Below, piece by piece: positions 5,157-55,451 of a DNA stretch of 64,000 nt. The stretch is from NCBI GenBank assembly GCA_033439295.1, contig JAVTLE010000008.1, forward strand, positions 2,232,001 to 2,296,000, read 5' to 3'. Each line of letters starts with the position of its first letter. Positions within the stretch are counted from its first letter, which is position 1. A model generated the notes under the pieces. That model did not search any database and was not told where the DNA came from. It saw only the letters and a program-made list of their open reading frames with translations. This DNA is from Deuterostichococcus epilithicus. Lineage: Eukaryota; Chlorophyta; Trebouxiophyceae; Prasiolales; Stichococcaceae. The translations under genes were made by a program, and so were the position numbers.

Positions 5157-8002
5157 ATGGCGGATTGGAATGACGCGCTTAATGCATATGAGGTCCTGGG
5201 CCTGGCCCAGGGCCCCAGGGCGACGGACGCCGAGATCGGCAAGGTATGCCGCAATGCTCAGCTGCCGATGTGCCCTGCTGCCGCTGCCGGTTCCCTCAGC
5301 CAAGCAGTCATCCTCTCTGTGCCCCAGCGCCTCAGAGTGCAGAACCACAAGAGCACAAATGCCTCCCCATTGCATGCCCATTGCCGCTCACGTCTCGTGC
5401 CATGCAACATGAGCAGGCATACCGCTCAGCGGCACTGCGCCACCATCCGGACAAGAACAAAGGCGATCCTGAGGGCGCCAAGAAGGCGTTCCAGCTCGCC
5501 AAGGACGCGCGGGACCTGCTGCAGGACGCCAAAGCGCGCGCTGCGCTGAATGCGCTGCTGCAGTGAGCAACTCGGCTTTGTGTCTTGCTCATGCCTTGCA
5601 TTGAGAATCTGCAACATGGCGGTGGCGTCCAGCCTGCTGCAGCATAAAGCCCGAGTGCCGAGGCACTGTACGGCGGGAGTTAGACTGCAGCTGCAGCAGT
5701 GTGCATGACTCCTTTTCCTTTTGGCTGCCACTCTCGTGGGGCCAGAGGCAAGCTGCAATGGCAACGCGCCGCCCTGGAGGGACATGACTGCCGCATCACA
5801 TGTCAACCAGATGCCCTGCCTGCACTCGCGCTCGCGGGCTGCTCACCCCGACTCACAATCTGGCACGCACAGGGCGCAGGCGACGCGGGACGCAAAGTTT
5901 GCAAACCAGGACGCCAAGCGGCGCAAGATGCGGGAAAAACTGGAGCGAGACGAGGCTGCCGTCGCCAGTGGGCGTAATGAGGAAGCAGAGGCCCGCAGCC
6001 GGCTGCAGGTGCTTGGAAATGTCTGAACACATCTGCATGGAGTTTCCTGAAAACCCAACCCAGTAGTTCCAGTATCCTGAGGCAAGTGCTGTACGCCAAA
6101 ACGTTCGGCACGGTATGGGCGCAGAGGAGACGCAGGCCTGCAGCTGGCTGCAGGTGTGATACCATCACAACGGCTCAGTGCCGGAGGAATGTCATGCAAA
6201 CAATGTTGCTTCCTGTAGACGCTGCTGCACAGGGAGCCATGGAAGCGGCCGCCGGAGCTGCCCCTGCATCCAGCAGATGTCGGACCCTGTGTCTGCGCAC
6301 TTTTGGCGCCGCAGGCCCGCCCCATGTCGCCCGTCAGACTCCCTCATCTGCGTGCTCGCAGGGCGAGTTGGCGAGGCTGAAGCGGGAGGCGGCTGCACGC
6401 CGGGCGGCGGCAGCAGCAAAGCAGCAGGCAGTGCAGCCGGCAGCGGCGCCGGCTGCAGCGACTTCGTCAAACGGACACAAACCAGCTCCCGCTGCGGATG
6501 CGCCGCCGCCCATCACAGAGGACCTGCTGAGGACGCTGAAGGTGTCCTGGAGCATCAAGGTGGGCTTGCCGCCGTGGCTGAGCAGCTCACACCTTGGCGT
6601 CGCATGCTGCACGAGTGCGGCCGCACGTGCCGTTGCCTCGTGCAAATTCACATCAACGTGTCGTTGTGCATTTGGGTGTCCATCGCATTAAGCAACGTTC
6701 ATGATGCGATGCAATCGACGTGCGAGCGTCATTGCTGCGGGGCGCAAAACTCGCACGAGCATCTGACAACCCGAAGATCTCAGAGCTCAGGCATATACAT
6801 GCGCACTCGCAGGTGGGGGCATACACCTCGCAGCAGCTGCGCGACGCCTTCGTGGCGCACGGCGCCGTTGAGGACGTCATCCTGCGGCAGGCCAAGAAAA
6901 AGTCCAAGGGCTCCGCGCTGGTGGTCATGCGGACGCGCGCCGCCGCTGCTGCGGCGGCCGCGGCGGCGCACGGCAGTCCTGCCAACCCGCTGCTGGTGGT
7001 GCCATTCCTGAAGGCACGGGTTGCTGACTCCGACTTCAAAGAAAAACCTGCATGTTGTGGGTGCTGGAAGACGTGTGTGCTGCGGCTTCTGCCGGGCAGG
7101 GGTGCTATTTGATTGGACTGGCTGCCTCAGGCCCATCGCTGGCAGATGCTTCTCCAGCTTCTAGGGTGGGCCCAGGTTTCAGAATCGCGATGTCTTTGAA
7201 GACTCTTCTCAGGCCCAATCGAGTGTTTTGCCTTGCTGATGGCGTATCTGGTGATGGGCAGGTGCCAGTGGCTCCCGGTGACGGCGACAGCCCGGCAGCT
7301 GAGCCGGCGCAGCAGCCCACAGCGCAGCAGCCGCTCGCGGCGGCAGAAGCGGCCAGCGATCGGTTTCGACAGGCTGATCCTGCAGCGGCGCCAGGTCCGG
7401 CTGGTGGCATCTCGTATGGCGGCAGCAGCTCGTCTGGCGCCCCCGCACCTGCGCAAGCAGCGCCGCTGTTCCCGGTCGACACCTCAGCGGCCACGCCCGG
7501 TAGCCAGAACGGGTGGCCGGCGCCCTGGCCGCACGAGCCGCTGTTCCCCAGCTTTGCTGCAGATGGCGGGGCAGCCTCTGCTGCGACGGCGGCGGCGCAG
7601 CAGCAGCAGCGCCACGCGCCGCTGCCGGCGGCTTCCAGCTTCCGGCCTCCCCCCGGGGGCTTCCCCGTCGGCGGCTTTGGCAGGGCAGGACCGCTGCTCG
7701 GCGGCCCTGCAGCAAATGGTAGCACGGCGAGCGCGCAACAGCGCAGCAGTGAAGCGCTACCGGGTGACACGGCAGCTGCCGCGCCGGCGTCAGCGGTGGC
7801 CGACGGCGGAGGCATTGGCGTCCAGCAGCAGCCGTCGCCGGCGGTGCAGGGAGCGAGCAGTGCAGCGCATGCAGATGCAAAGGTGTCGGCCCAGGGAAGA
7901 CCTGAGACGCCCGCCCAGGCAGAGCTGCGGCGCGCAGCCGAGCGGGCACGGCTGATCGCTCAGATGGAGGCTGAAGACGAAGCTGAGGATGGCGGTGCTT
8001 AA
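5157..8002 (+). CDS. DNAJC17-like J-domain protein with RRM
   Basis: This looks like a spliceosome-associated J-domain co-chaperone of the DNAJC17/Cwf23 family. Exon 1 (5157-5244) encodes MADWNDALNAYEVLGL, helix I of the J domain. Exon 2 (about 5417-5563) has AYRSAALRHHPDKNKGDP with the essential HPD triad, then FQLAKDARDLL. Exon 3 (about 5875-6008) is a charged coiled coil (DAKRRKMREKLERDE). Exon 4 (6361-6560) continues this and ends LLRTLKVSWSIK, the first strand of the RRM. Exon 5 (about 6811-7016) has GAYTSQQLRDAFVAHGAVEDVIL and NPLLVVPFLKA, matching the DNAJC17 RRM, but with a run of about ten Ala. A last exon from 7261 adds about 245 low-complexity residues (Ala, Gln, Pro, Gly) and ends RARLIAQMEAEDEAEDGGA with TAA at 8000-8002. 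The tail is much longer than in animal DNAJC17, and its exact borders are inferred. Confidence 0.87.
5981..6159 (+). repeat. Exon 3' end and its echo in the next intron (DNAJC17-like gene)
   Basis: The last 28 bases of exon 3 plus its donor (5981-6014) are partly repeated at 6126-6159. Both copies contain GGCTGCAGGTG and the same AGGCC..GCAGC spacing. The second copy sits in the intron about 145 nt downstream and has decayed. Confidence 0.5.
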
Positions 8003-8371
8003 TGAGGGCGGATGCATGCCTAGCTGCATGCCACTTGACAGACAAGTTCATCATATTATGGCATTCATATGCCTGTGTAAACGCCGTCAGACACATTGCC
8101 AGGGCAAGGGCACACGTCGGCAGTACTTCCGCAGCGAAGACTTGCGATGCGTCTCCGTTGAATGCATGCCCATTCCGAGAAGGTGCGAGCGTCGCTGCCG
8201 GAGGCAAATTATACTGCGGCAACTTCCTGTCGAGGGGATGTGCCACCACGTGGTGCGCTGTGCATGTTCTGATCCCCAGACGGGCGCAAGACAGCTCATT
8301 TCTGTTCTGCTCAGTGCCGGCGACACCCGTTATTCAAACGGAGGGTGTTGTGGCCCGCCAAATCTGCCACC
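8003..8371. other. Intergenic region between DNAJC17-like and amine oxidase genes
   Basis: This is a short tandem interval holding the 3' UTR of the upstream gene and the promoter/5' UTR of the amine oxidase. I see no further gene in it. Confidence 0.5.
8076..8080 (+). terminator. TGTAA poly(A) signal of the DNAJC17-like gene
   Basis: TGTAA occurs 74 nt after the TAA stop, a suitable distance for green-algal 3' end formation. Confidence 0.45.
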
Positions 8372-11300: not shown

Positions 11301-14300
11301 CCGCCGAGCTGGCGGCTGCCTTTGCAGGCGGCCACATGAGCTACTGCGTCCTGCCGCAACCCATCGGGCCGAACAACGACATCAGCTGGTCGCTTACCAC
11401 GCCGTTCGACCCGCTAGCGAATGCCACCGCCACTGCGGCCGACGCCATCCCGAACAGCGGCCTGCAGGGGCAGGTGCTCACCTCCCCTGCTGCCCTCAAG
11501 CCGGGTTTTCTTTTTCTTTTTTGCTTCAATCGATGCAAGCTGACATCTTGGAGCCTTGGGTAATGCACCGTCGCTACGAGCGGGCAGCACGCAGCAATGA
11601 GCATCTGATTTTCCGGTCCGCCGATCCGCAGGATGTGGGGACGCTGTCGGGCGGCCTCAACACCAGGGCCTCCTGCCGCTCGTACATGCCGCAAGGTTCC
11701 CGAGTCAGCGTCACACCCTCGGCGACCAGTGCGTCTTGAAGCCTGATAATAAACCGTGCACGCTTCTGATCCATGCTCTCGAATGTTCATGCGCGCCTTG
11801 CGCGCTGCGCCCTAATAAGAAGTTGACATTAGAAGTTGACATCTGAGCTTGAACCCATCTGGGCGGTCCACTCCAAGCGCCGGCGTGAGGCTCCATAAGT
11901 GCCCTTCTGAGCTGCCAGCGGTGCTGCCACACCGAAGTCTGTCGCCCGCTCTACAGTTCCTGATGCAAGAGCAACTGATCGTCCAAATGTCATATGAAGC
12001 GAGTACTACCTGGCAGGCACCGGAACCCAATTCAACTGGCTGGAGTGGTCGGGCCATGTGGCAGTGGATGCTGTGCGGGGGCTGTCGTTGCACGACATCC
12101 GCTTCCGCGGGCAGCGCATCCTGTACGAGATGGCCACGCAAGAGATGTACGTCAGCTACAACGGCTGGGGCGGTGCGTCAAATTCTCGCTGCTTCCTCGA
12201 GTGGCTCTCGTTAGCACAACGCACCTGGACAGGTGCGATGTCAGCTGCAGCGGCTGGGGCAGTACGCCGTTATCTTTTGAACCGCACGAACAATCAGCAG
12301 CACCGTCAGGCACATGCACTGTGGTGGGGGGTGCAGCGCCAATTCTTCAAAGCTCGAAAATCACACCTGCTATTCAACCTCAACGAAGGCTTGGCACGGC
12401 TGCTTCGCAAGCTCTGATCAGTCGCACTTCAGGATCAAGATTCAAGCACACCTTGCTGAGAAGTAGTCAATTCCTGTGCGCATATGCTACTGTGTTTGCC
12501 ATGCTGATTGCGACTAAGTGCAGGCATGTGTATTGGCCCAGGCAGAGCAGTGCGATGGCATTTTGCTGCACCGCAAGCGACAGCCACTGCATGTTGCAAG
12601 TGCAGGCGCGGGCCAGACCTACTTCTTCGACAGTGCGTATGGCATCGGCATCAACTTTGGGCCGCTGCAAGTCGGGCAGGTACTGACGGCCCTGCCTGCC
12701 TTGCGCCTGGCAGCTTCTGCTGTCGGCACTTTCTTTGCAGCTTTGGATGGCGCAGGCACTCACGCAATGCTGATGTCTTGGAGTCGCGCAGCAGCACAGC
12801 TCTAGATTAACACCTCCGCCAGGCATGCCTGCTGTGCCCGAAGCCACCACCGTCCGGCCGGTGCTTGCCTGCAACCTCCAGTGCCCACGACGCAGAGGCA
12901 TCAAGCACAGGTGTGCGCTGAGAGCAACCCGGATGTGCCGGAAACCCTGAAATCCGGTCATGCCCTCCGGCCCCGGGCAGGACTGCCCCAATCACGCCCT
13001 CTTCGTGGACGTGGCGGCGGCGCTGGATGCGGGCACCACGGGCGCAGTGCCCGCCTCCCTGTGCATCTTCGAGGACGACCGCTCGGAGACCGCATGGCGC
13101 CACCGCAGCACCGGTGCGCACAGCCCGGCTGCAAATCTGTTGCTTCTTTCAGTGATGATGCCTCCCGGCCTGTGGCTGGACGCGCTGCAGAGCTGTGCAC
13201 CCTTGTGCCACTGGTGCTCGGAGTGCGCTGCAGGCAGGCATGGCTCAGCCGCATGCTTCCTGAGGGGTCAGACACTAGGGGTGACCATAACCCGTCTCTT
13301 GCTGAATGCATGTCCGGCGATTGGCTTATGGTACCCGACCTCTCCTCGGCAGGGTCAGACTTGCTGCCGGAGCTGCTGGCAAGCAGCAACAGAATGTGTC
13401 TCATCAACTGAGTTGGAATGTCACACCACCCTGCACAGGTGGAAACGGCGGCACAAACTCTGCGCGGTCAGTGGAGCTGGTTGTCAGGGCCATCGCCACC
13501 GTCAGCAATTACGACTACCAGTTTGACATCCGGTGAGACTGGGGCTGCGGGCCTGTGCTGCATGGCTGCTGGTCATCTTCTTGTCAGGGCGCCAGATGGA
13601 GGCGCGGCGGGGTTTACGAGCGTAGCAAAAGGGCGGTGTGCTTGCCTTCCGGCACATGTTCGGGAGAGCAGAGAATCACGGTGTTTGTGAGCAGCGCTGA
13701 CGAGATTGACAAACCATCTGCTTGAGCGCTGCATGCTGTGTGCAAGCCAGACGCTTAAATTCTTCCGCTTGATATTTTCCACGGCCGCAATCTTGCAGCT
13801 TCCGTTTGGACGGCAGCATCGGGGCTGGCGTCGTTGCCGGCGGGTACATGGAAACCCAATTCTGGGAGTACCCTCAGACGAATGGCGACCTGCCCTTTGG
13901 CACGGTAGTGCAGCGCAACGTCTTGGCCAGCCTCCACGACCACATTTCAGGCAAATGCGGGTTCGCACAGATCCTCCTGCAGTCGACCGAAAGTTTCTTT
14001 GGAAGGCCGCGATACCGGCAGGGTGTCAGGTGGCAAGGCTGCTGGCTCATGCACCGTGCTGCCGGGTGCGCAGGCTGGAAGGTGGACATCGATGTGCTGG
14101 GCATCAACAACACTTTCGCCAAGGAGGTGCCTTCTACCCCTCCTCCACTTATTATTATTGCCGCTGGTGGTTTGCATGAGAAGCCCCATGGGAAGCCGCA
14201 TCCTGGTGCCAAATTGCCTCGCTGCTCAGAGACGCCGCGCCTGCCTGTGGCTGCCCCATATCTGACACGCTGCTCGAGTCCGATGGTTGCATTGCAGGTC

Positions 14301-16352: not shown

Positions 16353-16957
16353 TATGACAGAGTTGCAACCTGCAGTCTGAGGTCGGTATCACAGGCTGCA
16401 CCGCGCGCACAATGACCAAATATCATGTCAGTGGCGGGCGGCGGCGGCAATTTTGTGTATTGGCAGCAGTAGAGCGGAGGGCTTGCTCAAATGATTCCTC
16501 TCGGACACAAGTCATAGATGTTCAACTGTTTGCACCATACGTTGATTAAGTTGTTGATTGCGCCCGCTGCATTTCAGCCGGCGTCGAGGTTGGCCGTGGT
16601 TGCATCATTGGCAGTAGGCGGTTGCCACACACCGATGTGGTAATGGCGGCTCCACATTGGAACCCACCTACACATAACCTCAGGAACTAGTGTGTCTGTC
16701 CTGGTAGTAACACTTGCCAGCAAGGAATATATATCATCATCCGGCTATACATACTAATAACATGGTAAATCATCCGGCCCCAACATGTTAGATCTACATG
16801 CTGCTGAAGTAGTGTTGCTCGGCTGTAAACTGCTCAACAGACATTGCCTGACTGGCATTGCAAGAGTGAAACTGGCGTCCCGCCGCCATGCCGCAAGGTG
16901 TCCCATCAGTGACTCCATTCACTGTTGTGCCGATTTGCATGCCCGAGACCGGTACTA
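16353..16957. other. Region downstream of the amine oxidase
   Basis: This probably holds the amine oxidase 3' UTR; a TGTAA lies at 16824-16828. The sequence is less GC-rich than the exons, and I see no gene. Confidence 0.5.
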
Positions 16958-17052
16958 TCAAAGCTGCGTGAAGCAGACGCCAATGTCGACGTCGCAAATT
17001 TTGCTGCCACAGCAGTCCAGCGACTGGGTGCAGCGAGGTCCGGTGGCGGCAT
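16958..17052 (-). other. Possible terminal exon of a Cys-rich secreted protein
   Basis: On the minus strand an acceptor-like TTTGTAG ends at 17053. It is followed by a 95-nt open stretch reading DAATGPRCTQSLDCCGSKIC then DVDIGVCFTQL and TGA at 16958-16960. The pattern C-x5-C-C-x4-C-x6-C resembles small disulfide-rich (knottin-like) modules. It may be the last exon of the Pro-rich secreted gene that starts at 18478, or of a separate gene. I could not find the exons in between, so this is tentative. Confidence 0.3.
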
Positions 17053-18478: not shown

Positions 18479-18502
18479 GATGGAGTTGCTGCTGTGCTCG
18501 CA

Positions 18503-18510
18503 TTTATATT
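18503..18510 (-). promoter_or_regulatory. TATA-like box of the Pro-rich gene
   Basis: The minus strand reads CCAATATAAATGC here, 25-32 nt before the proposed start codon. This would imply a very short 5' UTR. Confidence 0.35.
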
Positions 18511-19003: not shown

Positions 19004-22000
19004 TCACACTGCCGGCTGCAGCGCTGGCGCGGCCGGGACCGCCGAGGCCTGCGGACGCTGCTCTGCCGCACCGCTGTCGGCCGCATCCTGCTGACTGGCC
19101 GCCGTGCCATTGACTGCTGCTGTGCTTTCGGCGCCGCCCGCTGATGCCGCGGCGTCATGGGCTGCCGTTGCAGCTCGCTCGGCTGCCTCTGCACTGCCGG
19201 GTGTGGCCTCCTGCAGAACCAAACAGTCGAGCCCATGACCGGGATATGAGGGAGCCGCTGTGGAGGTGCTCTGTAGTCGACCCGCTGCGCATCAGAGCTG
19301 TATGAGCAGGCCGAGGACATTGTGCGTTGGCGCCGGCAGGCTGCTGGGAGTAGGCCTTGAAGGCCATGAACGACACAGCAACATGCACGGAACCATCAGT
19401 AGTGCAGTACCTTCGTGGTCCGCCCGTGCTTGGGCTTGGGGCCCCAGTTCTTCTCGGGGTTGGGCAAGTACCGCGCGACCTGCAGCATCAGCAGGAGGAC
19501 TGCTGTTCACGGAGCGCCCTGCGTCGCAGGCTGACGTGTGTTTCGGGAACATGGCAGGCAACGACCGAAGGCTGTGCAGTCGCCTTCGGGGCAGCTGCTT
19601 CAGAGGACGCATGGATGCTGATCTGCCGACGCAGAGCCTCAGTATCAGCACCGCACACTAGAGTCTTGCAGCAATGTTACCCCAGTTAAAGCAGCTCCAG
19701 AGACATCTGATGAGCACCTTGTCGTTGGGCGCTCGGTGCAGGGCGGACACCGCGCGCGCAAAGTTGACCTTGAGCGATGGCTCCACCGCCAGGATCTTGG
19801 CGGCGTACGACGCCGGGTCCTGGACATCAAGCATTGTCAGGTCGTGAGTTTTCACAACGCGAGATGAATGCACAAGCTGTTTTGGTGGGTTGAGCGGACA
19901 CCCTGCGCGACGTTCTTGCCTTGGCGTGTCGTTCTTGGGAGCAAACGCCTGTCCATCAGGCTGCAGCAGTGCAAGGCCTGCACAACAGGTCGAGCGCGAG
20001 ACGGGCGGCTAGGGAGTCCTTGTCAGATCGACTGCGCCGAGGGTTGCCAAATCCACCGGCAGGCGCCCGGTGCAGCTCGTGCCCCAGACCCCCCGCCACT
20101 AGGGGTCACGAACCCGCGCCCATCGACCCAATGCTAGGCAGCGCTCAGATATGTCCGCCCTCGCTTTGACAACGTGGCCTTAACCCCCGCAGTTTCTCTT
20201 GTGACACAACGAAACTTGCGACACCCAGACAACAAGTGCGTCTTGAGCATTGAGGGTATAGTGGCAGCCGCACCTGCGCCTTGACAGGGTGGTCGGCGAC
20301 CCAGGCGCGCATGACGTCCCAGATGACGTCCCACGGCGCATCCGTCTTGATGCCCAGCGGGTTGGCGTGCGTGCCGCTCACCCTGTAGCCTGCAAGAGCA
20401 CAAGGGTTTTCTAGGGTGCGAGTCCAGCCAGTTGCGAAAAGGCTGAAGCAAGGGCGGTTGCATTGACGCGACAGAGGCTAGCGGAGCACCCCGTCTTCAG
20501 CGCAGCAGCATGGCGGGCCAGCTGCCAGCCCCGTGCACGAGATACGACATGTCCTTGCAATGCAGGCGCTCAGCAGGCATATCTGCGTCATACAGACACC
20601 AGTCTCCTGTGCGATCCCAATGCCCAGGGGGGACCGGCAATCGTGTGTGTAGGCAACTTCTACAATACGCAATCCGGCAACCCCCACCCGGATCGACGAG
20701 CGCACAGTGGAAGGCGTCACGCTACAGCGGCGGCGTCGCCATGAGCATCGTTTCCCAGGTGAGTGCGCTCAAGTGGTCTGGACTTCTTCTTCGAGCGAGT
20801 GCACTCGAGTGGACTTCAAGAGCATCCCTTATAGTTCCTCACCGGCATTGACGAGCGCAGACCGGAAGGTGTCATGCCGCGGCGGCGTCGCCTTGAGCGT
20901 CGCGCTGACCGAGTGCAGATCCAGGTATAGCGGGCAGTCTGGCAGCTCCTCTGCTGCGGACTGCAGCAGGCCGCGCACCCGGTCGAAGGCCGCATACTGC
21001 GACTTCCGCTCCTGGCACATGCACAAGAGTATGTGATATAGCAAGTTTTATACTGCGCTCTTCCGCGCTCTGGCGCTCTGCAGCATGCCGCAGACCCGGC
21101 CTCAGGCCGCATACTGCAGCTTGCCCGACAAACTCCTGCAGAATGGACCAAATGCCAGGGCTTCTGAGAGTGGCGTGCTGCTCTACAGGGCTCAGCAAGC
21201 GGCTGGCCCCCCAAAAGTGCAACTGATGAGCGCTCGGCCTTCGGCCCTCTGGCACTCGACCAGGGGCATGCTGACGGCCCGATGCGGGTACCATAGGCAA
21301 GGCTTCGACCAGGCCCCTATCGTCGTTTCATTTCACCAATCCGTGTTAATGTGGCGGCGCGCCCATGGAGGTCCAAGGTCGGAGGTGACCCAGTGCAGTC
21401 ACAGCAGCACACTTCACCTGAGAATGCAAACTTCATGCCCTGGATCTGTTTTTGTTGGTCGGCGGGGCGCTTGCCTGCATGGACGCCAGAATGGAGGGGA
21501 CCCAGGACGGGTCGTGCAGCGGCTCCACCCAGAAGGGGCCGCCCATCAGGAAGCCGGAGTCCGTGTGCGGGCAGCGCTGCGGCACCGAGGGCCCCGTGCC
21601 GGGGGTGAACTTGATGCTGTTGCCCTTGGCTTGCTGCGCGGCAGACAGGAGAGGGCAGTCGATCGGCTGAGAATGGTCTCTGCCACGTTGCCTCCGATAC
21701 GTGATGCTTCAGCTGAGGTGCTTGGAACCCATGGGCGAGTTGTGCGCTTTTGACTGTGGTGTACAGCAAGGAAGCAACTGTGCGGTGTGCAATGGCAGCG
21801 AGACCAGACTTCTAGCACTGCCACATTCGCAGCACTGCAAGAGGGGCCAGCAGCAACGCATGCCGTCGACAGGGCACATGCTTGCCTCCTTGCAGCACAC
21901 GCCGATCAAGTCTTGGCATGTATGCGGCAAGCCAATCGAGCTGCACAGTCAGCAGCGCCGGAATGTTGGGGTGCTAGGGGTTTGCAGCAGGCCGCAGATG

Positions 22001-24600
22001 CCTTTCAAGACGGCCTACTTGCGACCAGAAGATCTGCTTACAAGTGAAAGTTATCGAGGGTGGTCTAGATTGTGCACCTTGCGGCCGACGCGCTGGAAAT
22101 AGAAGGAGTCGCAGCCCTGGGACTGGAAGCAGTAGGCCAGCTTGGAGGGGGAGTCTTTGACCGCAGCTGCCGAGGTGTACACCCGCACAAACACCTGCGC
22201 ACATGCAAAACCCACTGACCGAATGTGCGAGGCTTCCAGGGTGACAGCACTGGTGTGTGGCAGCTCTGGTTGTCTCGGGCATCCTCTGGCAGCCAGATTG
22301 CCAGGCAACCGATGAAGACCAAGAGTGGCGGTCCCTCCGCCGAGGGCACGAACCCGACACAATCTCCAGCACACCCGCAAGCGGAAAGCCCCGACCCAGA
22401 CAGCGCCTCATGGGCATTTTCCCGTGAGCAGCGCCCTGGCCACGCACCCGGATGTAGAAGTCGATGCTGAGGCTGAGCACGGGCACAATGTGGCGCTTGT
22501 ACCGGTTGGCGTGCGACTCGATGGAGGCCAACAGGATGCGCAGCGCCATCTCGTGGCAGAAGGGCCGGTGCAGCGGGTATGCACCGTACTTGGCCCAGCA
22601 TGCTTCCCCGTTATTGCCGCACAGCACTGCGAAAGAGCCATGTGTAGGTTTGTAAAGAAGCAGGAATCGCCCTTCTGAGGACCGGCATCCAAGCCGTGGA
22701 ATGCACCGGCCATGTCAGTGATGGGCAGCACCCCTCCTGCGCAGCCTGCGTTGCTGCATGTCGGACAGACACGACGAGAAGAACAGAGAGTGCCTCACCG
22801 ATCATCTTGGTGACGGTGACTGCCTCACAATGAATGCAAGAGGAAAAGGAAAATCGCCGCACTGGCCACGCTGGTGGCAGTGATGAGCAGCAGGCCGCCT
22901 GCGCAGCCTGCGCTGCTGCATGCGCCACTGACTGCAAGTGGTGTTGCGAGGTGCCGCTCCGGCCACCACAGGTCGCGAAGCGGGATTCCGGACGCACCGG
23001 CCATGTCGGTGGCGGTGATGAGCAGCAGGCCGCCCTCGCTGACGGCCTGCACCGCGCTGTCCAGCAGCTGTGCCGGCGTGCCGTAGGGGTCCAGATCCAC
23101 TGCATCGTACGCCTGCCAAACACACATGGTAGCTTTCCATGACGCAGTGCAGACCAGCTACATTGCTATCACACATGTATTATGTACTTGCCAGCTGGAC
23201 AGCAGGTGCGTGGATCTTACGGATCCAGGTGCACCGCATTACACGCCGAGACGGTGCCAGTCACCCACTGACTGCAGGCGCCAGGCTGTCATGGCCATGA
23301 GCAGGTGCCCGCCGCGCCACAGTTCTTTGCACGCAGGCGGCCAACCCTGCGCGGCCAACACCTGGAGACTCATGTGTCCTGCCCGACTCACCCCGGCGTT
23401 CTGCATCATGACAATGCGGGCATCGCCCTGCTGCGGCCGCACTTTCGCCGCCGCGTCGCCGCCGTTGAATTCCACGTTCCGTTTCATGGCCTCCACGACC
23501 GAGGCGTCCAGGTCGTTGGCGTCCACGCGGCTGACGCCCTCGATTTCGGTCGCGTAGCGGATGGCGCGCAGGCCGGAAGCCGCCAACCCCTCCAGCACCC
23601 GCGCGCCCTTCTGTCGCGTGCGGAACAAGACAGGCAGTGTAGGCGGATGTTATAGCGGATGGCGGGAGTCGGCAGGACTGTCAGGAGGGACCACACGCAA
23701 TATTGAGGAGACAACACTGCCGGCTGATTGGGCTCAGGCCCCTGCGGCGTGGGCAGCGTCAGCGCGCGGGAAGCTGGTCTACAGGTTCGCAATACACTTT
23801 GTCGGAGACTCCTTGCATCTCTCCTCAACCCACCGGCTGGTCGGGCTCGGGCTCCTGCGGCGCGGGCATTGGCGGCGCGCCACGCGCACGGCCGCGCTTC
23901 TTTAGAGTCCCTGCCGCTAGCTCCGCTTCCCGCACGCCAATGAAGTGCCGCAGCACCGCCGTCGACAGGTCCCGGTTCACCACCTGTTGTATGCGATGCG
24001 AAGATCGTGTGCTGGCTCAGGGCATGCCGAAAAGTTGCGCTGGGATCATGCGCACAGGGCCACAGAGCATGCCGGACGGCGGCAGCCTCAGCATGACTGC
24101 TTGGATGGCATGAAGAAAGACCAACATGGAGCCTGCAGGTGATGCAGTTCGCCAACAGTGGAGCCTTCATCTGGCGGGGGCCAAGCTAATGCAGCATGAC
24201 AGCGACGTAGACGACCAACCTGCGCCGGATTGTAAAAGACGTCGTTACCCTTCTGCAGGATGGCGGCTTTGCCCTCCCGCAGCACTCTGTACCCCTCCGG
24301 CACAGCCCTGCAGACGCATTCGAGACGCCGTGTCGCCCAACAGCCACAGCCCAACGACTTGCACTGAGCACCGCACAGCGCCGCCGAAAGCGGGCTGAAA
24401 GCACTGTCTATGCCACAGTGCACGTCTTCCGCGCCTCCTGCGCTGCTGTGATGTGCAAAGACATGCCTGTGCGGATGCCGTATCATTGCAAAGGGGATGC
24501 GGACGTTCCGGCCGCAAACCGCTGGTCAGGAGGCCCACCTGTCGACCGGCATGTCCACCGCACCATCGGGCTGCGGGGGCGCTGTGCCAGCATCTGCCAT
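19004..24600 (-). CDS. TRM1: tRNA (guanine(26)-N2)-dimethyltransferase
   Basis: It makes N2,N2-dimethylguanosine at position 26 of tRNAs using SAM. The ATG at 24600 gives [20 protein letters not shown]. Donor AG/GTGGGC then joins in frame to [17 protein letters not shown] and NDVFYNP (24330-24240), the family N-terminus. Later exons: [15 protein letters not shown] (about 23970); [19 protein letters not shown] with the SAM loop, and [14 protein letters not shown] (23620-23400); [19 protein letters not shown] with the D-x-D-P-Y-G active site (about 23105); [19 protein letters not shown] (about 22570). Then [25 protein letters not shown] (about 21530); [20 protein letters not shown] (about 20890); [20 protein letters not shown] (about 20370); [36 protein letters not shown] (about 19470). 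The last exon is an Ala-rich tail ending TGA at 19004-19006. All TRM1 blocks are in order, spread over at least 13 exons. Confidence 0.94.
20961..21117 (-). repeat. Exon 5' part and its echo in the preceding intron (TRM1)
   Basis: The 40 bases 20961-21000 (coding for [12 protein letters not shown] on the minus strand) are repeated at 21078-21117 with about six differences. Both contain AGGCCGCATACTGC. The second copy lies in the intron upstream in the transcript, 117 nt away. Confidence 0.75.
22701..23036 (-). repeat. Two intronic echoes of the TRM1 active-site exon end
   Basis: The exon end coding for [13 protein letters not shown] (22999-23036) recurs at 22864-22900 and again at 22701-22737 inside the following intron. 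GTGATGAGCAGCAGGCCGCC is shared by the exon and the first echo. The two echoes also share TGCGCAGCCTGCGCTGCTGC (one change) at 22900-22919 and 22737-22756, so intron sequence was duplicated too. A weaker fourth copy may lie near 23285-23330. Confidence 0.75.
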
Positions 24601-26034: not shown

Positions 26035-29000
26035 CTTATGCACCTCCGGCGGCGTCGTCTGCGAGTCCAGCCACAGGGCGCGCCGCCTGTCGGCCGAGTG
26101 CACGAAGTCCGGGTGGCGGCCGCCCAGTTGGCCCGCCGCCTTCGCGGGCCGCTGGTCCAGCCATGCGTCCGGGTCATCCAGGAACGCCGCCCACCGTGCG
26201 GCGCCGCGCTCCTCGGGGCTCAGCACCTTCACCGGCTGCATTGGCATGAGCGAAGTTCTGCTGTTTCTCCAGGCCAGCTACGGATTGACAGGATCTTCCG
26301 ATGTGCAACCACCCCTGGTAGCAATAGCCCCGTCGCACGGCGCCGCGCTCCGCCGGGCACAGCACCACCGGCCGCGCGGGATGGGAGCACAAGTTGGAAA
26401 CCATTATCCTTGCTGCACCGCGACACGCTTCCCTGAGCTGGCTGGCTTCCCTGGCTGTGTGACCCAGCGGAGCGTGCTGTTTGCAGCACTGGGACCGAAG
26501 CATTGGGGCCGGACTGCTTGCACGCGAACGGCTGCCCTGGCACTCGTGCAGCTGTCCCAGCAGGCTGCGCCAGAGCGCAGGCTGCCTCCGGGTAGGGACT
26601 AGAATCAAACCGACTGCAAAGGTGCAAAATATTCCTACACAGGGTATGCCCACCTGCCGGCTGCGGTCGGGCCGCGCGTCGATGGCCGCAACGGCAGCCG
26701 CCGCCCAGGCGGGCGCGTCCTCCAGCCACAGAGCGTCCCAGGAGTTGTGCTGGTGCCGGAAGTCGGGGAACGACGGCCGCTTCTTGGCGGAGCGGTGGTC
26801 GAAGTACTCGCCCGGGCGGCCCAGGAAGCGAAACCAGTCGTTGGCGGTGGGCCGCTCCGCGCGCCGCGTCGCCGCCTCGCTGCTGCCCCAGTCCTGTGCA
26901 GGAGCCAGCAGCGGGATGAGCCGTGCCAGAGGGACATCGAGGCATGGGGCAGAGGCGGCGTTGGTGGGGCCGCACACCGCGCCGCGGCGTCGCCTCCAAG
27001 CTGCTCCAGTCATGCGGGGGAGTGCCGCGTAGCTGACGGCACTCTGCAGGCTGGACACGGTCTGAGGGAGAGAGAATGAGCAGAATGGCCAGTGCGCAAA
27101 CCCTGAAGCAGCGCTGTGCACCAGCGCAATCCTGTTTCAATCAAGTGGCTCTGCTGGCCTGCCTCACCTCCTGCCACCGTTGCAGGGCGCCGTCTGCGCC
27201 GAGCCAGAGCGCCGCCCGCGTCTTGGTGTGCAGCACGTCCGGGTACCAGGGCGGCTTATAGCCCGCCGCTTTGAGTGTCCGGAAGTCCTGGTGCGCCGCC
27301 GGCCGCTCCTGGAAGCGCCGCAGCGCTGCCGCCGCCGCGGCAGCCGAGCGGGCGTGGGCGGAGGCTCCCACATCCGGCGCCGGAGGCGACTGCACGCCCA
27401 TTGCGCAATGGAAGGGTGACTTGCGACGCTCGACCGAGAATGTGGGCGCAGGAGGCGGGCTGCTCGGCAGGGATGCTCTCTGATGGCTGAATGCCATCCT
27501 GAAGGAGCAGGCGTGCACAAACATGCACCAGTCGGCACCGCATTGCACGGGGTGCGTGATCACCGGTGACCTACCATGCAGCGAATGACAGGGAAACCAC
27601 GGCTGAAGGGCAGGCCGCATTGCAACGCACCTTTGAGGCATGCACATCCCGATCCATTGCCGCCACCCGCCGCCGCACCCACGCCGGCGCGGCGCTCAGC
27701 ACGAGCCTGTCGGAAGGGTCGTGCTGGTGGCTGAAGTCGAAGCCGCCAGCTGCCCTGCCGCCAGCTGCCGCTGCCCTGGGGCTGCCGCCGCCGGCGGGAC
27801 GACCGCCGCCGTCATCGCACACGCTGCCGCCGGTCACATCGCCGACGCCGATCGGCGCGTCGTCAGGTGCCGCCGATCCATCGCTGGCTTCTGTGCTGCT
27901 GCTGCTGCTGCTCGTTGATGTGGCGGCGCCTGACGCCCGGGGACGGTGGTCCCAGTAGGTGTGCGCTGCGGCCAGGAAGCGGAACCACCCGGCAGCTAGC
28001 AGCGCCTCGCCGGACGCACCCTCGGGCCGCGCCTCCCACTACAGCAGGCAGGAGTTTTTGCTGCGCCGTTGTTCGAATGTATGATCGCACTTTCGACGGT
28101 GACAATGAAGAATCTGTCGCAACGTTGTCGTCGAGAAATGCGGGGCGTTGCCACTGCACCTGAGAATACTGCTCGGGGTTGCGCAGCCGTGCGGCCGCAG
28201 CTGCAGCCATCGCGTGCGCAGCATCCTCCCTGGGCCGCAGCACGCACGGCTGCAAGAGGTTCAAGAAGGAGTTTTGTCACGGAGCATACGCTGTTTCGCA
28301 CGGTAATCATGCCATGCGGTGCCTGCTATTGGCGCCCTCGCATGGCAAGAGACTCGACGCACACGACGTGCATGCAGTGCCATCTCGTCACCTTCTGCGC
28401 AGCACCGCCGCGACCGTCGATGTCCCCCACCGTCTGTGTCACCCACGCAGGAGCGCTGCTCAGCCACAGCGCATCCCGCGCGTCGTGCTGGTGCGTGAAG
28501 TCTGGCGCCGTTGCAACCTGCTTCCGCATGGCACACGAGGGCGCTGACCACCTCCCGGGATGGTGCCGACTGGTGTTTCGGCAGGTCTTGGCAGCGAGCG
28601 CCCAGTGTCAGCCTTTGAATAGAATACAAGTCACCTCGCCTGCCCATTTGCACGGCCCCCGCCAGCTGGTGGGTCTGCAGGCGGGTGTTGCAGCGCACCT
28701 GCTTTGATGTGCGGTGGTCCCAGTACTCTTGCGGCCGCGCTGCAAAGCGGAACCAATCGTTTGCGGTGGCCGCCGGAACCACCTGTCGTTGAAACGCGAC
28801 TCATGTAGCAGGCGTGTCGGGCAGCCTTGTCCAACTGAAAGTTTGAAAAGGCGCATGGCACAACAACATTACACAGCATGCATGACGGGTTGTGTACCCC
28901 CTGCACGAAGCTCACCTCGCCACCTGACTTGTCGGCTGACAGATGCCGGGGCCTCCTCGTCCCACTGGCGGCCTGAATGGGCCGCTGAGATTGCGCCGAG

Positions 29001-29669: not shown

Positions 29670-31657
29670 ATGGCGAGCGCTCTGGCGATGCGGACGACGA
29701 TGCCGGCGCGGTGCGCCCGGCCAGTTGCCAGGCCCAGCCTGCGGTCCAGGAGGGTCGTGGCGATGGCAGCTCCCCAGGTGGGCAAACTTCAAGCGTCTTT
29801 TGACGCATGCGTCGGGCTGAAGCTATATGATCCTATCGAACACGGCCGTTCGCCAGAATCGCGCGATGCAGTACAGCATTAGCTGGAGCATGGCCATGGC
29901 ATCGACCTCAGTAGCATCCCTCTACACAGGCGGTGTGCGGACACATGAGTTGCATATTATGCTTAGAAAGGCATCGTCTGAACCATGACCTCACGCTCGT
30001 GGACAAAGGCATGGGTCCCCTTGCACTCACGAGTCCTGGCACCGTGCCGGCAGCCAGATTCTGTGCGTGACCTGTCCAGCATCTCACCGCCATGTCGGCA
30101 ATGAGCCACATCTGAAAGTCATACATCATCCGCTGGTGCCTCGTATGTCAGGCCACGATGCATGCGCATGCTTGTCATGAGCCAGATTGCCATACACAGC
30201 GCCCGGCGGTGGCAGGGTCAGAGCCGCAAGCTGGGGCGCCAGCGACTGCTGCCAACAGCGGCGGCAGTGGTGATTGTTGGCAGCAGCAGGCCGCGGCACT
30301 GGCCGCTGCGACGTGCTGCAGAGGCGGCGGCGGCAGGGCTGGCGTGATCCTGCAGCTCCAGAGCAAAGGCTCATCCAAAACAGCTGCAGAGGATCAGCAT
30401 CGTTCTGGCATGAACAGCAAAGTGGTAACGATCATCGTTGTCCGCCTGTCGACCACAAGCGGTGAGACCATCCGGCGCTGGAAGTGGCCATGATGGAGGC
30501 ATCGCGAATCCTGGGAAACCCCTCCAAAGCCACGGCAGGATGCAAAAATAAGGATGAAACTCTCTCTCTCTCTCTGCTGAGTGCAGGCGGTGGACCAGTC
30601 CGAGCTGGAGGCGGCCATCAAGGAGGCAGAGGCGGTGTCGGCGAAGAGCAAGACCGCCCGCCAGCAGGCCGACGACCTTAGCAAGCAGAGCAACGTCGCC
30701 TGGGAGAAGGTGCAGCCTCCCCTTGTCCCCCCGCAGCCTCCGCGCCGCAGGCGCACACCCACTCGAGAAGTGCACGCTGTTGCGTGCGCACGGCGTCGAG
30801 TAGAGACCCGCCAGCCTGCATGTGCGTACCTGCCGCTGTGGCGCGTCGGGAACCTTGCAACCAACTTTCCCGCCATATTGTTGTCCATGCTGACCCTGGC
30901 GCGTCCGAGTCTCTGACCCGTTTTAGCTCTGCCGCAGGTTGAGGCTCTGAAGGCACAAGCACGTGACCCCAATGCGGTGAGGGATCTGTGCATGTTGTGC
31001 ATCATGTAATATTTGCATCATATGGCCGACCTCACTTGAGTCAGCTTTCCATTGGGACTGTAGCACACCGGCCGTGTGCACTTGCTGTATTGAGCTGCAG
31101 CAAGAGCGGCTGCAGCACCTGCTGCTACCAGCCCCTGCTGCGCTGCTTTGTGGCGTCTTCTGGCGTGCCGCGACAGCAGCGCCAAAACTGTGGGAGCGAC
31201 GCTGGAGGAGTGCAGTCTAGATTCGCCAGCCTTGATGATGGCAAAGAGCTCGCAGTTTCAGCGGTTCAATTGGTGTGTGCTGCAGACGTCCTCGGACCCG
31301 CTGGAGGACTTCTGCGCCGGCGACCCCTCCGCCGACGAGTGCAGGTGGGGGTTTGGGATAGGGACAGGGATGTGAGAGATGTGACCGTGCCATACTTCCT
31401 CCGCTCCATGGCAGAGTGTCTGGGCGGCGTGAGGAACAAAATGTTAGTTGCTCAAAGCGCTTAATCCGACTCTCGGCTTGCACACAGCAGCAAGCCGCAT
31501 AGATGGCCCAGCCCTGTGGCTGGCGCATTGGGTCGCCCGGGCAAGGCCGCAGTCTGTGGGTACCTGCAGCCGCAGCAGCACTTCCGGTCGTAACTTGTGC
31601 CCATTGATGCGCGCTCAGCTGTGGACGCTGCCTGTGTGCAGGGTCTACGAGGACTGA
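29670..31657 (+). CDS. CP12: CP12, Calvin-cycle regulatory protein
   Basis: CP12 is a small, largely disordered plastid protein that binds GAPDH and phosphoribulokinase in the dark under thioredoxin control. Exon 1 (29670-29777) is a plastid transit peptide, MASALAMRTTMPARCARPVA followed by an Arg/Ser stretch and VVAMAAPQ. Exon 2 (30587-30709) reads VDQSELEAAIKEAEAVSAKS and then SNVAWEKV, the counterpart of the family A-W-D-x-V-E-E-L core. Exon 3 (about 30939-30976) is EALKAQARDPNA. Exon 4 (about 31285-31343) has SDPLEDFCAGDPSADEC. Exon 5 ends RVYED with TGA at 31655-31657. The total is about 114 residues. The C-terminal cysteine pair for GAPDH binding is present; the N-terminal pair found in most plant and Chlamydomonas CP12 is absent. 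Exon phases all agree. Confidence 0.93.
30560..30575 (+). repeat. (CT)8 microsatellite in a CP12 intron
   Basis: This perfect CT run lies 11-27 nt before the exon 2 acceptor of CP12, so it forms part of the polypyrimidine tract. Changes in its length could affect splicing. Confidence 0.8.
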
Positions 31658-32722: not shown

Positions 32723-35700
32723 TCAGCCGGAGGCGGCACACATCTTGAAGCCGAGGGCCTGGTTGCTGCTGAAGCAGATGGGCGAGCCGGTGCCGCCCAC
32801 CTTGATGCTCCCCTCTACGTACATCATGTCGCTCCGGTTCTACAAAGTGCAACAACAGGGGTCAGCACACTCACAAGAACAAGGCACCGCATCATGGACG
32901 CCCAGCGCCTGACTGTGCAGTCCTTGCCACAGGCAATCTTTACTAGAAGGACAGCATGCCGACTCCAAGTGCACAGGTTTGTTTTCCAGTTTTCCACGAC
33001 ACAGCGGGATGTGCCTGTGGGACCCTGGCAGCTGTGCGCGCGACGCAATAATGCAGTGGCAAGGCAGCAGCGCCACAGTCGGGCAAAAATAATGTTGCGC
33101 ACCTTGCGGTTGGCCATCAGGGCGCCGACCTGCTGACTGGGGTCAGCAAAGGTGGCCACCACCCCGTCTGCTGTCATGGTCACAGAGCTGGCCTGCATCC
33201 GCAGCAGTAGACAGGCTCATTAAGTTGGCAGAAGAAAACGAAAGCGCCCTGTCGTCATTGTCGCCATAGGAGCAGCACAGCGCCGCAGCGCCATCAGCAC
33301 GTCATGCACTTTGACAGAAAACACCCTGGAATCCAGTCGATGCAGCGGAAGTGCTGCCCTGGCGGACATGATCATCGCGCATGAGCGCACCGTCAGAATG
33401 GACTGGCTGTTGGCACGCAGCACCACGTTCGGCTGGACATCGGCCAGCGCGTACGCGATGGGCGAGCTGGCCTGCTGCTTGATTAGCACAGTGTGGGTGG
33501 TCGCCGCCGGGTCCAGGCAGGCGGCGTCGGCGGACACATCCAGTGGGACCGCGCTCACTGACAGCGGCGCTGCGGGCACAGCAAAGGTTCCGATCGGCGC
33601 CAGGCTTGTCATCAGGTTTACTATTTGCAAGCCGCTGGCAGCAGCGACATACACACCACACATGCAATGCGATGCACGCTGCAAAATCCGGGCTGCTGCC
33701 GTGCAACGGTGCTGCCATGAACCTGCAGCATCATACTAGCACAGCAGGGGCGACTCACCGCAGAAGAACTTCTGCGTTGTGGACTGCAGCGGAGGGTAGC
33801 ACTGCAGCGCGGCGTCCATGTTCCAGGAGAAGCCAACGCATGCCTTGCAGGCCGGCACGCTGCCGACTGTCATGTCATAGAACTGGCCGACGGGGCATGT
33901 CGGGTTGGAGCTGCCATACCGGGCGCTGCCGATGGCCTGGGATCCCGTCTGCATTGGATGAAGGAGACATCGAGTGAGCAAGTCAATGGCAGTTGGTCTG
34001 GCTTGATAAACGAGGGGCAGGGGATGCAGCAGCCCAGGCATCGCCCCGTCCTTGTGCCCGTGCTGAGATTGCAGCGGCAGATGTCTGCCAGCGCGGCGCC
34101 AGGGAGAGCCGGAAGGGAGAAAGGGGAGGGGGCTGCTGAGCAAAGCGCAAGACGAAGGCACAACACTCCGTGGCAGCCACCGCCCGGACGCACCCTGACA
34201 GACCCGCTGGAGGGGTCGAACTGGGTGGAGGTTGGCAGAATCGGCGTCAGTGCCAGCTGCTGCGCTGTGACGACATTTTCAGCGGTCACCTGCGCAGGCA
34301 ACCAGCACAGGACACTCTCACGGCTGCGACAGGACCCGTCTCGTGGGACAAGGCACGAGTCGCAGCAGAAAGTAGCAACTTGAGAGCAGCAGCGCTTGCT
34401 GATGAGTGTACGGCAGCCCTGCAAAGGCTGTCATTGACGACTTCAGCAATTCCTGCCATCACACGAAAGCTGCAGAGAACACGCACCACGCTGCTGGGCC
34501 CGATGAAACGGAAAGACAGCGGCAGCTTTGGCATCTGATTCATCTGCCAGGCCGCGCCGTACTGGCTCTGCAGCGGCGTGCCAGTGAAGTCCGATGCCGG
34601 CAGCGGCGTTGGCGCTGGGGTTGGCGCTGTTGTGGGCGATGGCACCTCCACGCTCTGGACTGGCATCGGAGTGGGCTGGGCCGTGGGCTGCGCTGTCGGC
34701 CGTGTCGTTGGCTGCGCCGTGGGCAGCTTTGTTGGCTGCCGCGTGGGCTGCGTCCTCAACGAGCTAGTGGGCCGCTTCTTCGTGGGCCGCTTCTTCGTGG
34801 GCCGCTTCTTCGTCGGCCGCTTCTTTGTCGGCCGCTTCTTGGTCGGCTTGCCGGCCAGCAGCCGGCGCCCTAAGACGGACTTGACGCTGGTGATTGCTGT
34901 GGCCAGCGGCGTTGTGGGCTTCGCCTCCACGACGGGTACAGCGTCCACCCACTCTGCCGCCGCGCGGCCGTTGGCAGGGGCTGAGCCGCGGACCTGCACC
35001 CCCTGCAGGGCACCGCTGCCGCCGACATCCTGAACGCAGCATGTGCGAAACTGCCGTGAGCCGCCTGCTGCACATGCATCTGCAGCGCATCGCAACAGGG
35101 TGGAGCGGCCGCAGCCGCTGTAGCCTGGCAAGCACAACAGCACGATGGCTAGGCCATGTACTTCACGCACTGCTCAACATGCAAGCAGCGCTGCTGCCGA
35201 CAGCAAGCGATAGGAAGCGCGGCCTCTTCATCAACAAGCGCACCATCACAGTGAATTTAAAAAAGCCGGAGCCGCTCTGGCCGTTCAGCACGTTCAGCTG
35301 CATGCTGGTCGGCGGCGCGCAGTCCACCGGCCGGTAGCGCATGTCGATGCGACCTTGCGAAAGGGGCGCCAGCTGCGGCACACAGGTTTTGTTGTAGTCA
35401 ATTGTCCGCCAGGCGTGTCGAGATGCTTGGGGCGACGCCGCACGGCGGCGTGCACGCTTGCGTCAGCATGCAGCTTACTGACTCGGTGCAAAGGCAGCGC
35501 GCATGAGGGGGTCTTTCAGGCGAGTCGATGTATCAAGGATGCTTTAGGGGTTGGCTCACCCGCGCAAAGGTTAGGGCCTGCATGTCCATGTGGTTGGCCT
35601 CGCACTCGGGGCAGCTGTCGGTGATGGTAACGATGACCGAGTTGTCTTCAGAGTTCGCATTGCACCGACCCTACACCCACGCAGCGCGCGGTGTCAGCTA

Positions 35701-50997: not shown

Positions 50998-51613
50998 GAG
51001 GATGGCTGGTGAAGGTAAACCACTGCAGCGTCGGCAGACGGCAGTCTTGTGTCAGCATCATGCTCGAGAGCAGCTTCTGGAACTTCAATGATTAGTGTGG
51101 GAGGCTCCCACTGGGAGCAGCGAGAGAACTCTCGGACGGTAGTGAGGGAGCTGTGGGGTCTGTGCGCTGCGGCGGCGCAATATCGCCACCGCCGGTAGAT
51201 ATGTTTGGCATTAGTGAATCTCGCATTATTCTAATTGCAATTGGAAGGTGTTCGATCTGCACGTTTTGTAGAGAATTTGAGTAGATTGTTGGGATTTAGG
51301 TGGTAGTAGGTGTGCGAATTTATCGATCCGTCCGCATCAGTGGACTGAGACAGAACCGTAGTCGAGAACACTTGAAATACTTCAAGCATTGGTTTTGAGG
51401 CTTTCGACACTTGAAATGGCTCGACACTCAATCGAAGGTATCAGTAAACCCTGAGATTTTTGCTCAACACTTATGCACTTCGCCCTGCACTAACGCCTTG
51501 GTAGTGCACGTGCGTGGTGCTGCTGAGTGGTACCTGAGTAGTACCACCATGCATCCAGAGGGCACAGGTGGATCCAAGTCCCTCGTGCCTGCGCACTCGG
51601 TCGCTCGATTCGA
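50998..51613. other. Convergent intergenic region
   Basis: It holds the 3' UTRs of the O-acetylesterase and of methyltransferase B. The part 51200-51460 is clearly AT-richer than the exons. No gene is seen. Confidence 0.55.
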
Positions 51614-54600: not shown

Positions 54601-55451
54601 CTAGACGTATGATGCAACGACGATGGCAATGTTGGCTGAATGTGTCAGACTATTGGCCTCCAGGGAATCTAGACGCAGCTGCCCGTGCATAGATTTTCTG
54701 ACGCAGTCAATGTGTGTGTCCACTCTGAGGTGGTCGTGCAAAGGTAAGATGAATCCTAAGCTCACGTAAAAGCACAAACCCAAACCCTTCAGGAAACTAG
54801 CACCCGTTTCTTGAGCTTGGCCCTCCAGGGAATTTGGACACGGCCACAGCGCACAGATTCTCTGCTCCGGAACGACCTGCACTCCTGCAGCCACTCAGCC
54901 AGACGCTTCCGGGATCATGTCCAGCAGCCTCGGCGCAAGTAAAGCTTTCGCTCTGCGCCGGAACCTGTCTACACACTACATAAAAGCGTGGCGGTGGCTA
55001 ACATGCCTATTGCAGACAGGGCTGGGTGTTGGGGCCAATTATGCGATATTTCCCCTCAGGTTCTCAGGGGTCAGCCACCTTCTGGAGGTTCCCATTCGCT
55101 TGCGAATACCTGTTCTTTAGGGTTTTTGATAACACAAAATATAGCTGCCACCGCAAGCCATCCAACGGGCGGTACCTGCTGATGCAACCACTCCCTCACG
55201 AAGCGCTCGTTGAGGTTGCAAGCTTCCGCGATGTCCGAGCTGGATGCTTTGCCGAGCTGCTTCATCTTGGCGTACATTCCGAGGGAGTCACCCAGCGCGA
55301 TCATGCTGCTGGACATGGCTCCAGACAAGTAGCTGAAGAGCTTCTGCTGCAGCAGCTCCGTCTCGGAAGGTGGCAGATTTTCATCAGCCACTGCTGCTAC
55401 TGCTGGCGCGCTGATTTTTGCTGCAGCAGCGGCTTCGGCAAGGGCTGCCAT
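51614..55451 (-). CDS. SAM-dependent methyltransferase with N-terminal winged helix, copy B
   Basis: This is a class I methyltransferase of the Rv2258c-like type; the substrate is unknown. The first exon (55451 to about 55174) encodes TELLQQKLFSYLSGAMSSSM, IALGDSLGMYAKMKQLG and CNLNERFVREWLHQQ, the winged-helix dimerisation domain. Next come FWLNEAQEGLLANEHGPDAS (about 54450), MQEAFRTGRGFTYDAMGDQA (about 54090) and EDGIAVADVGCGCD (about 53690-53645), SAM motif I. Then ELLFTLARAFPNSTYTGYDI (about 53300), LNISFRNPLEAGQGLPDAPT (about 52960), HDMARPDKVLPLVRK (about 52640) and YIINDPRGLPTPARNIAEAP with FYGFSCHCCLPSG (about 52320-52200). The end is MSEEGGMGYGTLGFQ (about 51925), then EEQARELAAAADFRGFED and SPMNNVFMLTP, with TGA at 51614-51616. 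It shares its exon order with copy A, so the pair arose by tandem duplication. Confidence 0.88.
51776..51810. repeat. C-run and (CG)n microsatellite in a methyltransferase intron
   Basis: A C-rich stretch runs into alternating CG with a GTG interruption. It lies in the intron before the last exon of copy B. Confidence 0.8.
54869..55199 (-). repeat. Possible echo of methyltransferase B exon 1 end, plus a second duplication
   Basis: The end of exon 1 and its donor (55169-55199, coding for EWLHQQ) resemble 54869-54900 in the following intron (GAGTGGCTGCAGGAGTGCAG and GTCGTTCC on the minus strand). The next bases, 54822-54871, also resemble 54655-54706, sharing GGC(C)CTCCAGGGAAT and GATT(T/C)TCTG. 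Similarity is about 70 percent, weaker than the other echoes. Confidence 0.4.

Follow-up and report, generated by a model that had tools for sequence, protein, structure and literature searches.

We describe here a recurrent form of local repetition in a 64,000-nucleotide (nt) stretch of the genome of the green alga Deuterostichococcus epilithicus (assembly GCA_033439295.1, contig JAVTLE010000008.1, positions 2,232,001 to 2,296,000 of the forward strand; hereafter the window). About one intron in twelve in this one window carries, in its interior, a decayed copy of the end of an adjoining exon, and these exon-edge echoes are genuine and far above chance. Copy and source always share the same orientation, and they lie within a narrow range of distances from one another.

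Exon-edge echoes against background similarity

For each of 107 introns from predicted gene models, alignments were made with the adjoining 60 nt of the two flanking exons and, as controls, with the corresponding ends of exons from unrelated genes (mismatched intron–exon pairs) and with the reverse complement of the intron's own exon edges, with a cut-off score of at least 30. Five donor-side and three acceptor-side own-edge pairs reached this score, against expectations of 0.000 and 0.011, respectively, from the mismatched pairs, and the reverse complement gave none on either side among the same 107 introns. A comparison of this kind over every intron of the genome had been proposed as the check by an earlier reading of the window from its letters alone (the sequence-only reading), and within the window the same-strand excess is borne out. 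After the start of one exon was corrected (see below), nine introns carry strong echoes, five donor-side and four acceptor-side. Under strict scoring these nine have z values of at least 4.9, the next best intron reaching 3.1; looser scoring separates them less, with z values from 2.5 to 5.7 for the echo introns and 2.6 for the best other intron. A scan independent of annotation, which sought ungapped repeats at a threshold of 19 and spacings of 12–700 nt after 17 stretches, mostly low-complexity or tandem repeats, had been masked by hand, returned 13 direct and no inverted repeats, all 13 at spacings of 51–162 nt. Eleven of these are echo pairs, the others being an intergenic 51-nt repeat and a repeat near 60400.

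In the four genes that the sequence-only reading had named with confidence (TRM1, the PDF-motif gene, the amine oxidase and the DNAJC17-like gene), the echoes hold where it had placed them, and it had overlooked those in CP12, in two further TRM1 introns and in a second intron of the PDF-motif gene. Its weaker fifth case, the 55169/54869 pair of methyltransferase B, falls to chance level: the best local score is 18, and the best donor-side own-edge match of that intron lies away from 54869 and ranks at p = 0.227. Chance or low-complexity similarity, which GC-rich DNA invites and which this pair exemplifies, can be dismissed for the nine strong cases, since they have no inverted or mismatched-pair equivalents.

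All gene models are predictions, made with a small gene finder that was trained on the window itself. The window, which is probably nuclear DNA, has a G+C content of about 61% (56–69% per 2-kilobase (kb) step), and in the gene models its introns are many and short, with GTGCG/GTGAG-like donors and TGCAG-like acceptors. From 133 introns in the gene-finder model, 107 curated introns were kept; two TRM1 pseudo-exons, a 3-nt exon in CP12 and one of zero length at 6154 were absorbed by merging the introns around them, one methyltransferase exon start was moved, and uncertain gene ends were omitted. In the PDF-motif gene an exon start was re-set to 26893 (26892 in some analyses), with the acceptor CTGCACAG before 26893; it was moved after the 26839/26959 pair had been sighted inside the predicted exon, which took the number of echoes from eight to nine, and this later addition counts as an ordinary intron in the 107-intron chance test and in the length test. 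Pfam was given ten predicted proteins or pieces, expansin-like gene 2 and methyltransferase B lying outside the scan, and nine had matches (DnaJ and RRM, Cu amine oxidase, TRM, CP12, expansin-like, SASA esterase, methyltransferase, mitochondrial carrier, and sugar transporter); the search with the PDF-motif gene gave no match. The names DNAJC17, SAM carrier and PDF-motif gene are assumed, in part taken over from the sequence-only reading, and Pfam supports domains only.

Anatomy, host introns and decay

The nine strong sources measure 27–66 nt and consist of 22–63 nt of exon and 1–12 nt of intron (Table 1). Between source and copy lies an unduplicated stretch of 53–104 nt, and the spacing of the junction ends is 89–155 nt; a separation of 90–300 nt had been claimed, and it is real, but its range is narrower. 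In eight of the nine cases no match of the spacer to either of the adjoining exons or to the remaining intron reaches p < 0.03, the exception being PDF intron 6, where it is similar to the upstream exon end. When exon, spacer and intron pieces were compared all against all, 6 of 66 comparisons fell below p = 0.03, with about two expected, and three of the six paired exon with exon. The 70 top-scoring direct pairs in the window's listing include no intronic repeat family of the introner-like kind.

Introns with echoes are about twice as long as others (median 425 versus 219 nt; 8 versus 99 introns, Mann-Whitney p = 4e-5). TRM1 is enriched in them, with four of the nine echoes in its 12 introns and five in the 95 introns elsewhere (Fisher p = 0.009), and one TRM1 intron holds two copies (22858..22916 and 22703..22760). 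Five donor-side copies end 109–339 nt before the acceptor, and the second TRM1 copy ends 76 nt before it. Counting this second copy, the GT at the homologous place is kept in five of six donor-side copies; on the acceptor side, with two weaker cases counted, AG is kept in one of six. Two observations concern the splice signals themselves. The DNAJC17-like echo at 6116-6156 ends CAG/GTG, where the gene finder placed an exon of zero length, the appearance expected of a recursive splice site; and the TRM1 acceptor-side copy at 21068-21138 has an acceptor score of 7.6, compared with 3.1 for the exon's own, presumed-used acceptor.

Base and codon counts were taken from the exonic columns of the nine strong cases, excluding the two weak cases and the second TRM1 copy. 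Copy and source differ in 67 of 409 columns (16.4%), with 12 gaps in nine events. Mismatches are spread about evenly over codon positions 1, 2 and 3 (0.188, 0.169 and 0.133), and the copies are therefore read as decaying without coding constraint, as non-coding DNA, beside exons that have hardly changed. Divergence is alike among the nine events (chi2 2.9, 8 degrees of freedom, p = 0.94), and the highest identity of any copy is 91% (31/34). Older echoes were sought in the other 98 introns: under strict scoring the mean z is 0.04 ± 0.10 on the donor side and 0.09 ± 0.11 on the acceptor side, that is, not shifted from mismatched pairs, with four acceptor-side values above 2.5 against an expectation of 1.45. 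Under looser scoring the means are −0.12 ± 0.10 and 0.20 ± 0.10, respectively, and 0.18 ± 0.11 for its donor-side reverse-complement control. TRM1 intron 9 may hold an older acceptor-side echo at a spacing of about 147. The like divergence, the ceiling of 91% and the lack of a clear background of older echoes together suggest a limited period of activity in the past, nine events being few for such a claim. The sequence-only reading had spoken of a habitual process that adds sequence from exon borders to introns; local same-strand copying of this kind stands, but "habitual" is too strong, because the other 98 introns show no clear background of this sort.

Table 1. Positions of source patches and their intronic copies in the window, with two weaker cases at the end
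Feature	Positions	Strand	Details
DNAJC17-like source	5969..6011	+	last 40 nt of exon 5873-6008 + 3 nt intron; DnaJ, RRM domains
DNAJC17-like copy, donor side	6116..6156	+	intron 6009-6361; 34/41 identical; ends donor-like CAG/GTGTGA
Cu amine oxidase source	12151..12177	+	last 22 nt of exon 12017-12172 + 5 nt intron; Cu_amine_oxid domain
Cu amine oxidase copy, donor side	12240..12266	+	intron 12173-12605; 23/27 identical; shortest echo
TRM1 source	20837..20902	-	last 60 nt of exon 21011-20843 + 6 nt intron; TRM domain
TRM1 copy, donor side	20682..20750	-	intron 20842-20390; 55/66 identical
TRM1 source	20949..21014	-	first 63 nt of exon 21011-20843 + 3 nt intron
TRM1 copy, acceptor side	21068..21138	-	intron 21474-21012; 54/64 identical; CTGCAG acceptor kept
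TRM1 source	22993..23050	-	last 53 nt of exon 23112-22998 + 5 nt intron
TRM1 copy 1, donor side	22858..22916	-	intron 22997-22627; 48/58 identical; 36-nt mini-exon in gene finder
TRM1 copy 2	22703..22760	-	51/58 identical to 22859-22922 apart from 6-nt gap; closer to copy 1 than to exon
TRM1 source	23833..23880	-	last 47 nt of exon 23983-23834 + 1 nt intron
TRM1 copy, donor side	23720..23767	-	intron 23833-23611; 39/48 identical
PDF-motif gene source	26199..26239	-	first 37 nt of exon 26235-26035 + 4 nt intron
PDF-motif gene copy, acceptor side	26338..26375	-	intron 26653-26236; 34/38 identical; AG lost
PDF-motif gene source	26839..26904	-	start of exon re-set to 26893 + 11 nt intron (12 nt with junction 26892)
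PDF-motif gene copy, acceptor side	26959..27022	-	intron 27167-26894; 50/64 identical; AG lost
CP12 source	30584..30628	+	first 42 nt of exon 30587-30709 + 3 nt intron; CP12 domain
CP12 copy, acceptor side	30456..30501	+	intron preceding exon 30587; 38/44 identical; AG lost
Mitochondrial-carrier gene, weaker acceptor-side copy	60814..60841	+	of exon start 60901-60928; 22/28 identical
Expansin-like gene 1, weaker acceptor-side copy	35170..35202	-	of exon start 35027-34994; 26/33 identical

Possible origins of the echoes

The explanation that we favour, which is quite possible though short of likely, is that every echo goes back to a single local mutation and has decayed since; a junction patch would have been copied in the same orientation while the spacer stayed unduplicated. 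A patch of 27–66 nt across the exon/intron junction would be copied directly and the copies left 53–104 nt apart, either because a staggered break spanning the junction had both its sides filled in and was rejoined with filler DNA, or through a double template switch in repair or replication. The messenger would be unchanged, because the exon's own splice site would stay intact or travel within the copied patch; the extra DNA would become intron, the intron would grow, and the spare copy would decay as non-coding DNA. With break repair as the presumed cause, selection would act as the filter, retaining copies that leave a working splice site. Only junction-straddling events would then be seen, because copies internal to the exon would harm the protein and those internal to the intron would decay on both sides, whereas a straddling event would stay visible with a working splice site left beside a conserved exon.

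Known systems offer partial parallels. Daphnia neointrons carry direct repeats from staggered double-strand breaks, and internal breaks have been proposed to enlarge young introns (PMC4202315). The echoes share with these neointrons a direct repeat, inside the intron, of the adjacent exon end, set apart from its source by an insert that is unrelated in eight of nine cases; the Daphnia repeats, however, measure 4–12 base pairs (bp), a length that no echo has, and stand at the opposite end of new introns (PMC4202315), whereas the echoes (27–66 nt) lie inside long introns and occur on both the donor and the acceptor side. Small tandem duplications at overhang breaks are likewise local, direct and under about 100 bp (PMC8355091, PMC5730883), but the copies in the window are non-adjacent, and their spacer is not detectably duplicated. 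Insertions templated by polymerase theta are also short and copied from within 250 bp of the break (PMC5730883); the echoes differ in being direct copies only, anchored at splice junctions. Intron gain by tandem genomic duplication likewise leaves duplicated exon sequence in an intron (review: PMC3443670), but places the copy at the intron end, where no echo is found. Direct repeats close to splice sites have been described near intron borders (PMC11782384), although those are 4–30 bp long (mean 11.4 bp) and lie at or near both borders. Our literature search, covering titles and abstract openings but not the Chlorella variabilis genome paper, found no description of exon-edge copies in algal introns; passages from two algal genome papers make no mention of such copies (PMC3446292, PMC12633428).

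Several points weigh against an origin in break repair. All nine strong sources contain the junction and end no more than 12 nt past it. Selection and the poor visibility of intronic duplicates account for this in part, but random straddling breaks should often carry 20–40 nt of intron, which is unseen, and the consistently small share of intron is something that selection explains poorly. Spacers of 53–104 nt seem long for filler, and on the acceptor side random filler would also need to supply the branch point. An anchored test for intron-side similarity is borderline in TRM1 intron 3 (p = 0.050). Repair inserts described elsewhere include snap-back, inverse ones (PMC5730883), while all copies in the window are direct. 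Moreover, the gene models are predicted, the simulations described below assume equal rates, and the comparisons lie within a single genome; relatives were sought with a TRM1 query against viral contigs, without a match, and with part of the amine oxidase as a pattern against genome contigs, where 42 stretches matched and none was a relative.

An alternative that we hold to be unlikely, yet worth serious weight, is that the echoes are plain tandem duplications of about 90–155 nt across the splice site, with the exon half still recognisable through exon conservation and the intron half decayed in both copies. Such duplications, a well-known product of repair when small (PMC8355091, PMC5730883), would account for direct orientation, junction contact and longer introns. 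The echoes are nevertheless probably not of this kind, because an intron half as old as the echo should remain visible if intron and echo change at equal rates, and none is detected. Extension beyond the splice consensus in eight events gave a summed score of 11.5, compared with 6.9 ± 2.6 from 26 cross pairs, whereas simulated tandem duplications gave 134–171 at 0.2 changes per site and 160 at 0.19; a sum near 12 requires about 0.6 changes per site, three times the echo divergence. The direct orientation is that of a tandem duplication; the unit between the copies, under that assumption of equal rates, is not duplicated as a whole. An unanchored search for a duplicated intron flank under middle scoring likewise found none in eight of the nine strong cases and the second TRM1 copy (p = 0.25–0.95), PDF intron 6 being outside that comparison; under strict scoring TRM1 intron 5 reached p = 0.013 through a CATGCAGC stretch common to both copies. 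In the weak cases the flank search gave p = 0.025 for the mitochondrial carrier, under strict scoring only, and p = 0.003–0.045 for expansin-like gene 1, where the comparison falls on the upstream exon. The two TRM1 copies in one intron also speak against tandem duplication: although both lie in the intron and agree at 51 of 58 positions, the sequences that follow them show no match (p = 0.55 anchored, p = 0.95 unanchored). Finally, the exon share of the spacing is 0.25–0.51 in all nine cases, a quarter to a half, and not evenly spread.

Rather improbable, in our judgement, is a variant in which the tandem duplications are older and their exon-like part alone has stayed similar, either through repeated gene conversion by the exon or because the echo serves in splicing. 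Homology would then stop at the junction once the intron had diverged, as is observed, and the retention of GT in donor-side copies fits as well; against this, there is no codon-position pattern, and AG has been lost in five of the six acceptor-side copies. Conversion tracts of 27–66 nt at 16% divergence also seem unlikely.

A function of the echoes as alternative or poison exons is very unlikely. The gene finder did pick two TRM1 copies, which hold both splice sites, as mini-exons of 36 and 30 nt, and use of the echo donor in TRM1 intron 5 would keep the frame, which stays open. However, the even decay over codon positions shows no coding constraint, and TRM1 without its two exon-like echoes matches the TRM profile nearly end to end (5-376 of 376, 396 bits in Pfam). 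Use of the echo site would retain 89–155 nt, a multiple of three only in TRM1 intron 5 among the nine, and would bring in-frame stops in six of them; the suggestion that introns had been lengthened by moving the active splice site is for these reasons not supported.

Two further readings we regard as highly improbable. The first is that introns were gained when exon sequence containing AGGT was duplicated in tandem, and several local similarities would agree with it: expansin-like gene 1 intron 5 is weakly similar on two sides, the stretch before the acceptor in PDF intron 6 resembles the upstream exon end (p = 0.005), and the stretch after the echo in TRM1 intron 9 resembles the start of the next exon (p = 0.005). 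In all nine strong cases, however, the copies lie in the intron interior, away from its far end, no echo of the other exon reaches p < 0.03 in seven of the nine, and the coding sequence of the PDF-motif gene has repeats of its own that could explain the PDF case. The second, of about the same low probability, is that unspliced messenger precursors served as templates for error-prone, adenine-biased copying and that the products were reinserted beside the splice site, lengthening introns. Sources that include the junction and the first intron bases, the like divergence and the ceiling on identity are leads in this direction, as is the pattern of changed source bases on the coding strand: A 23/65, C 21/145, G 18/160 and T 5/39. 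A exceeds the other bases (44/344; Fisher p = 3e-5) and T (p = 0.013), the A count is stable under four alignment scorings, and drawing the changes according to intron composition (A 0.192, T 0.224) would lead one to expect only 11.8 changed A's. This bias, if upheld in a larger sample, would hint at strand-specific, possibly RNA-templated copying; the base test was chosen after the data had been seen, however, and TRM1 intron 8 lacks the bias (1/9 A's).

Neighbouring features and implications

Other features of the window were recorded alongside the echoes. Between genes, at 2430-2563, lies a local repeat whose period is about 51 nt. In expansin-like gene 1, intron 5 (35030-35243) weakly resembles both flanking exons, the start of exon 6 at 35202-35170 and exon 5 near 35158-35035, and may be an old tandem-duplication intron; the same gene encodes at 34671-34850 PTKKR repeats in a row and, after them, a linker rich in proline and threonine, with a Pfam match to the PT disordered repeat. 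On the minus strand, 51614-59194 holds two tandem methyltransferase genes, A and B, about 4.2 kb apart and 70% identical over 347 aligned residues; they were tried as a clock and rejected, with 67 of 131 fourfold sites different, which is saturated, and introns that are not clearly alignable. The predicted N-terminal part of the mitochondrial-carrier gene (60445-63987) includes a stretch that resembles an EF-hand: EF-hand_6 passes its cut-off with 26.9 bits, and two other EF-hand models stay below theirs.

Intron growth is usually traced to mobile elements. If copies of exon edges are recurrent in this alga, they would offer a route of intron growth without a mobile element, and they would leave a signature legible in any annotated genome, where it could be counted and, from its decay, dated. 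The anchoring at the junction, together with the absence of intron-side duplication, would then provide a specific test of the repair step at work.

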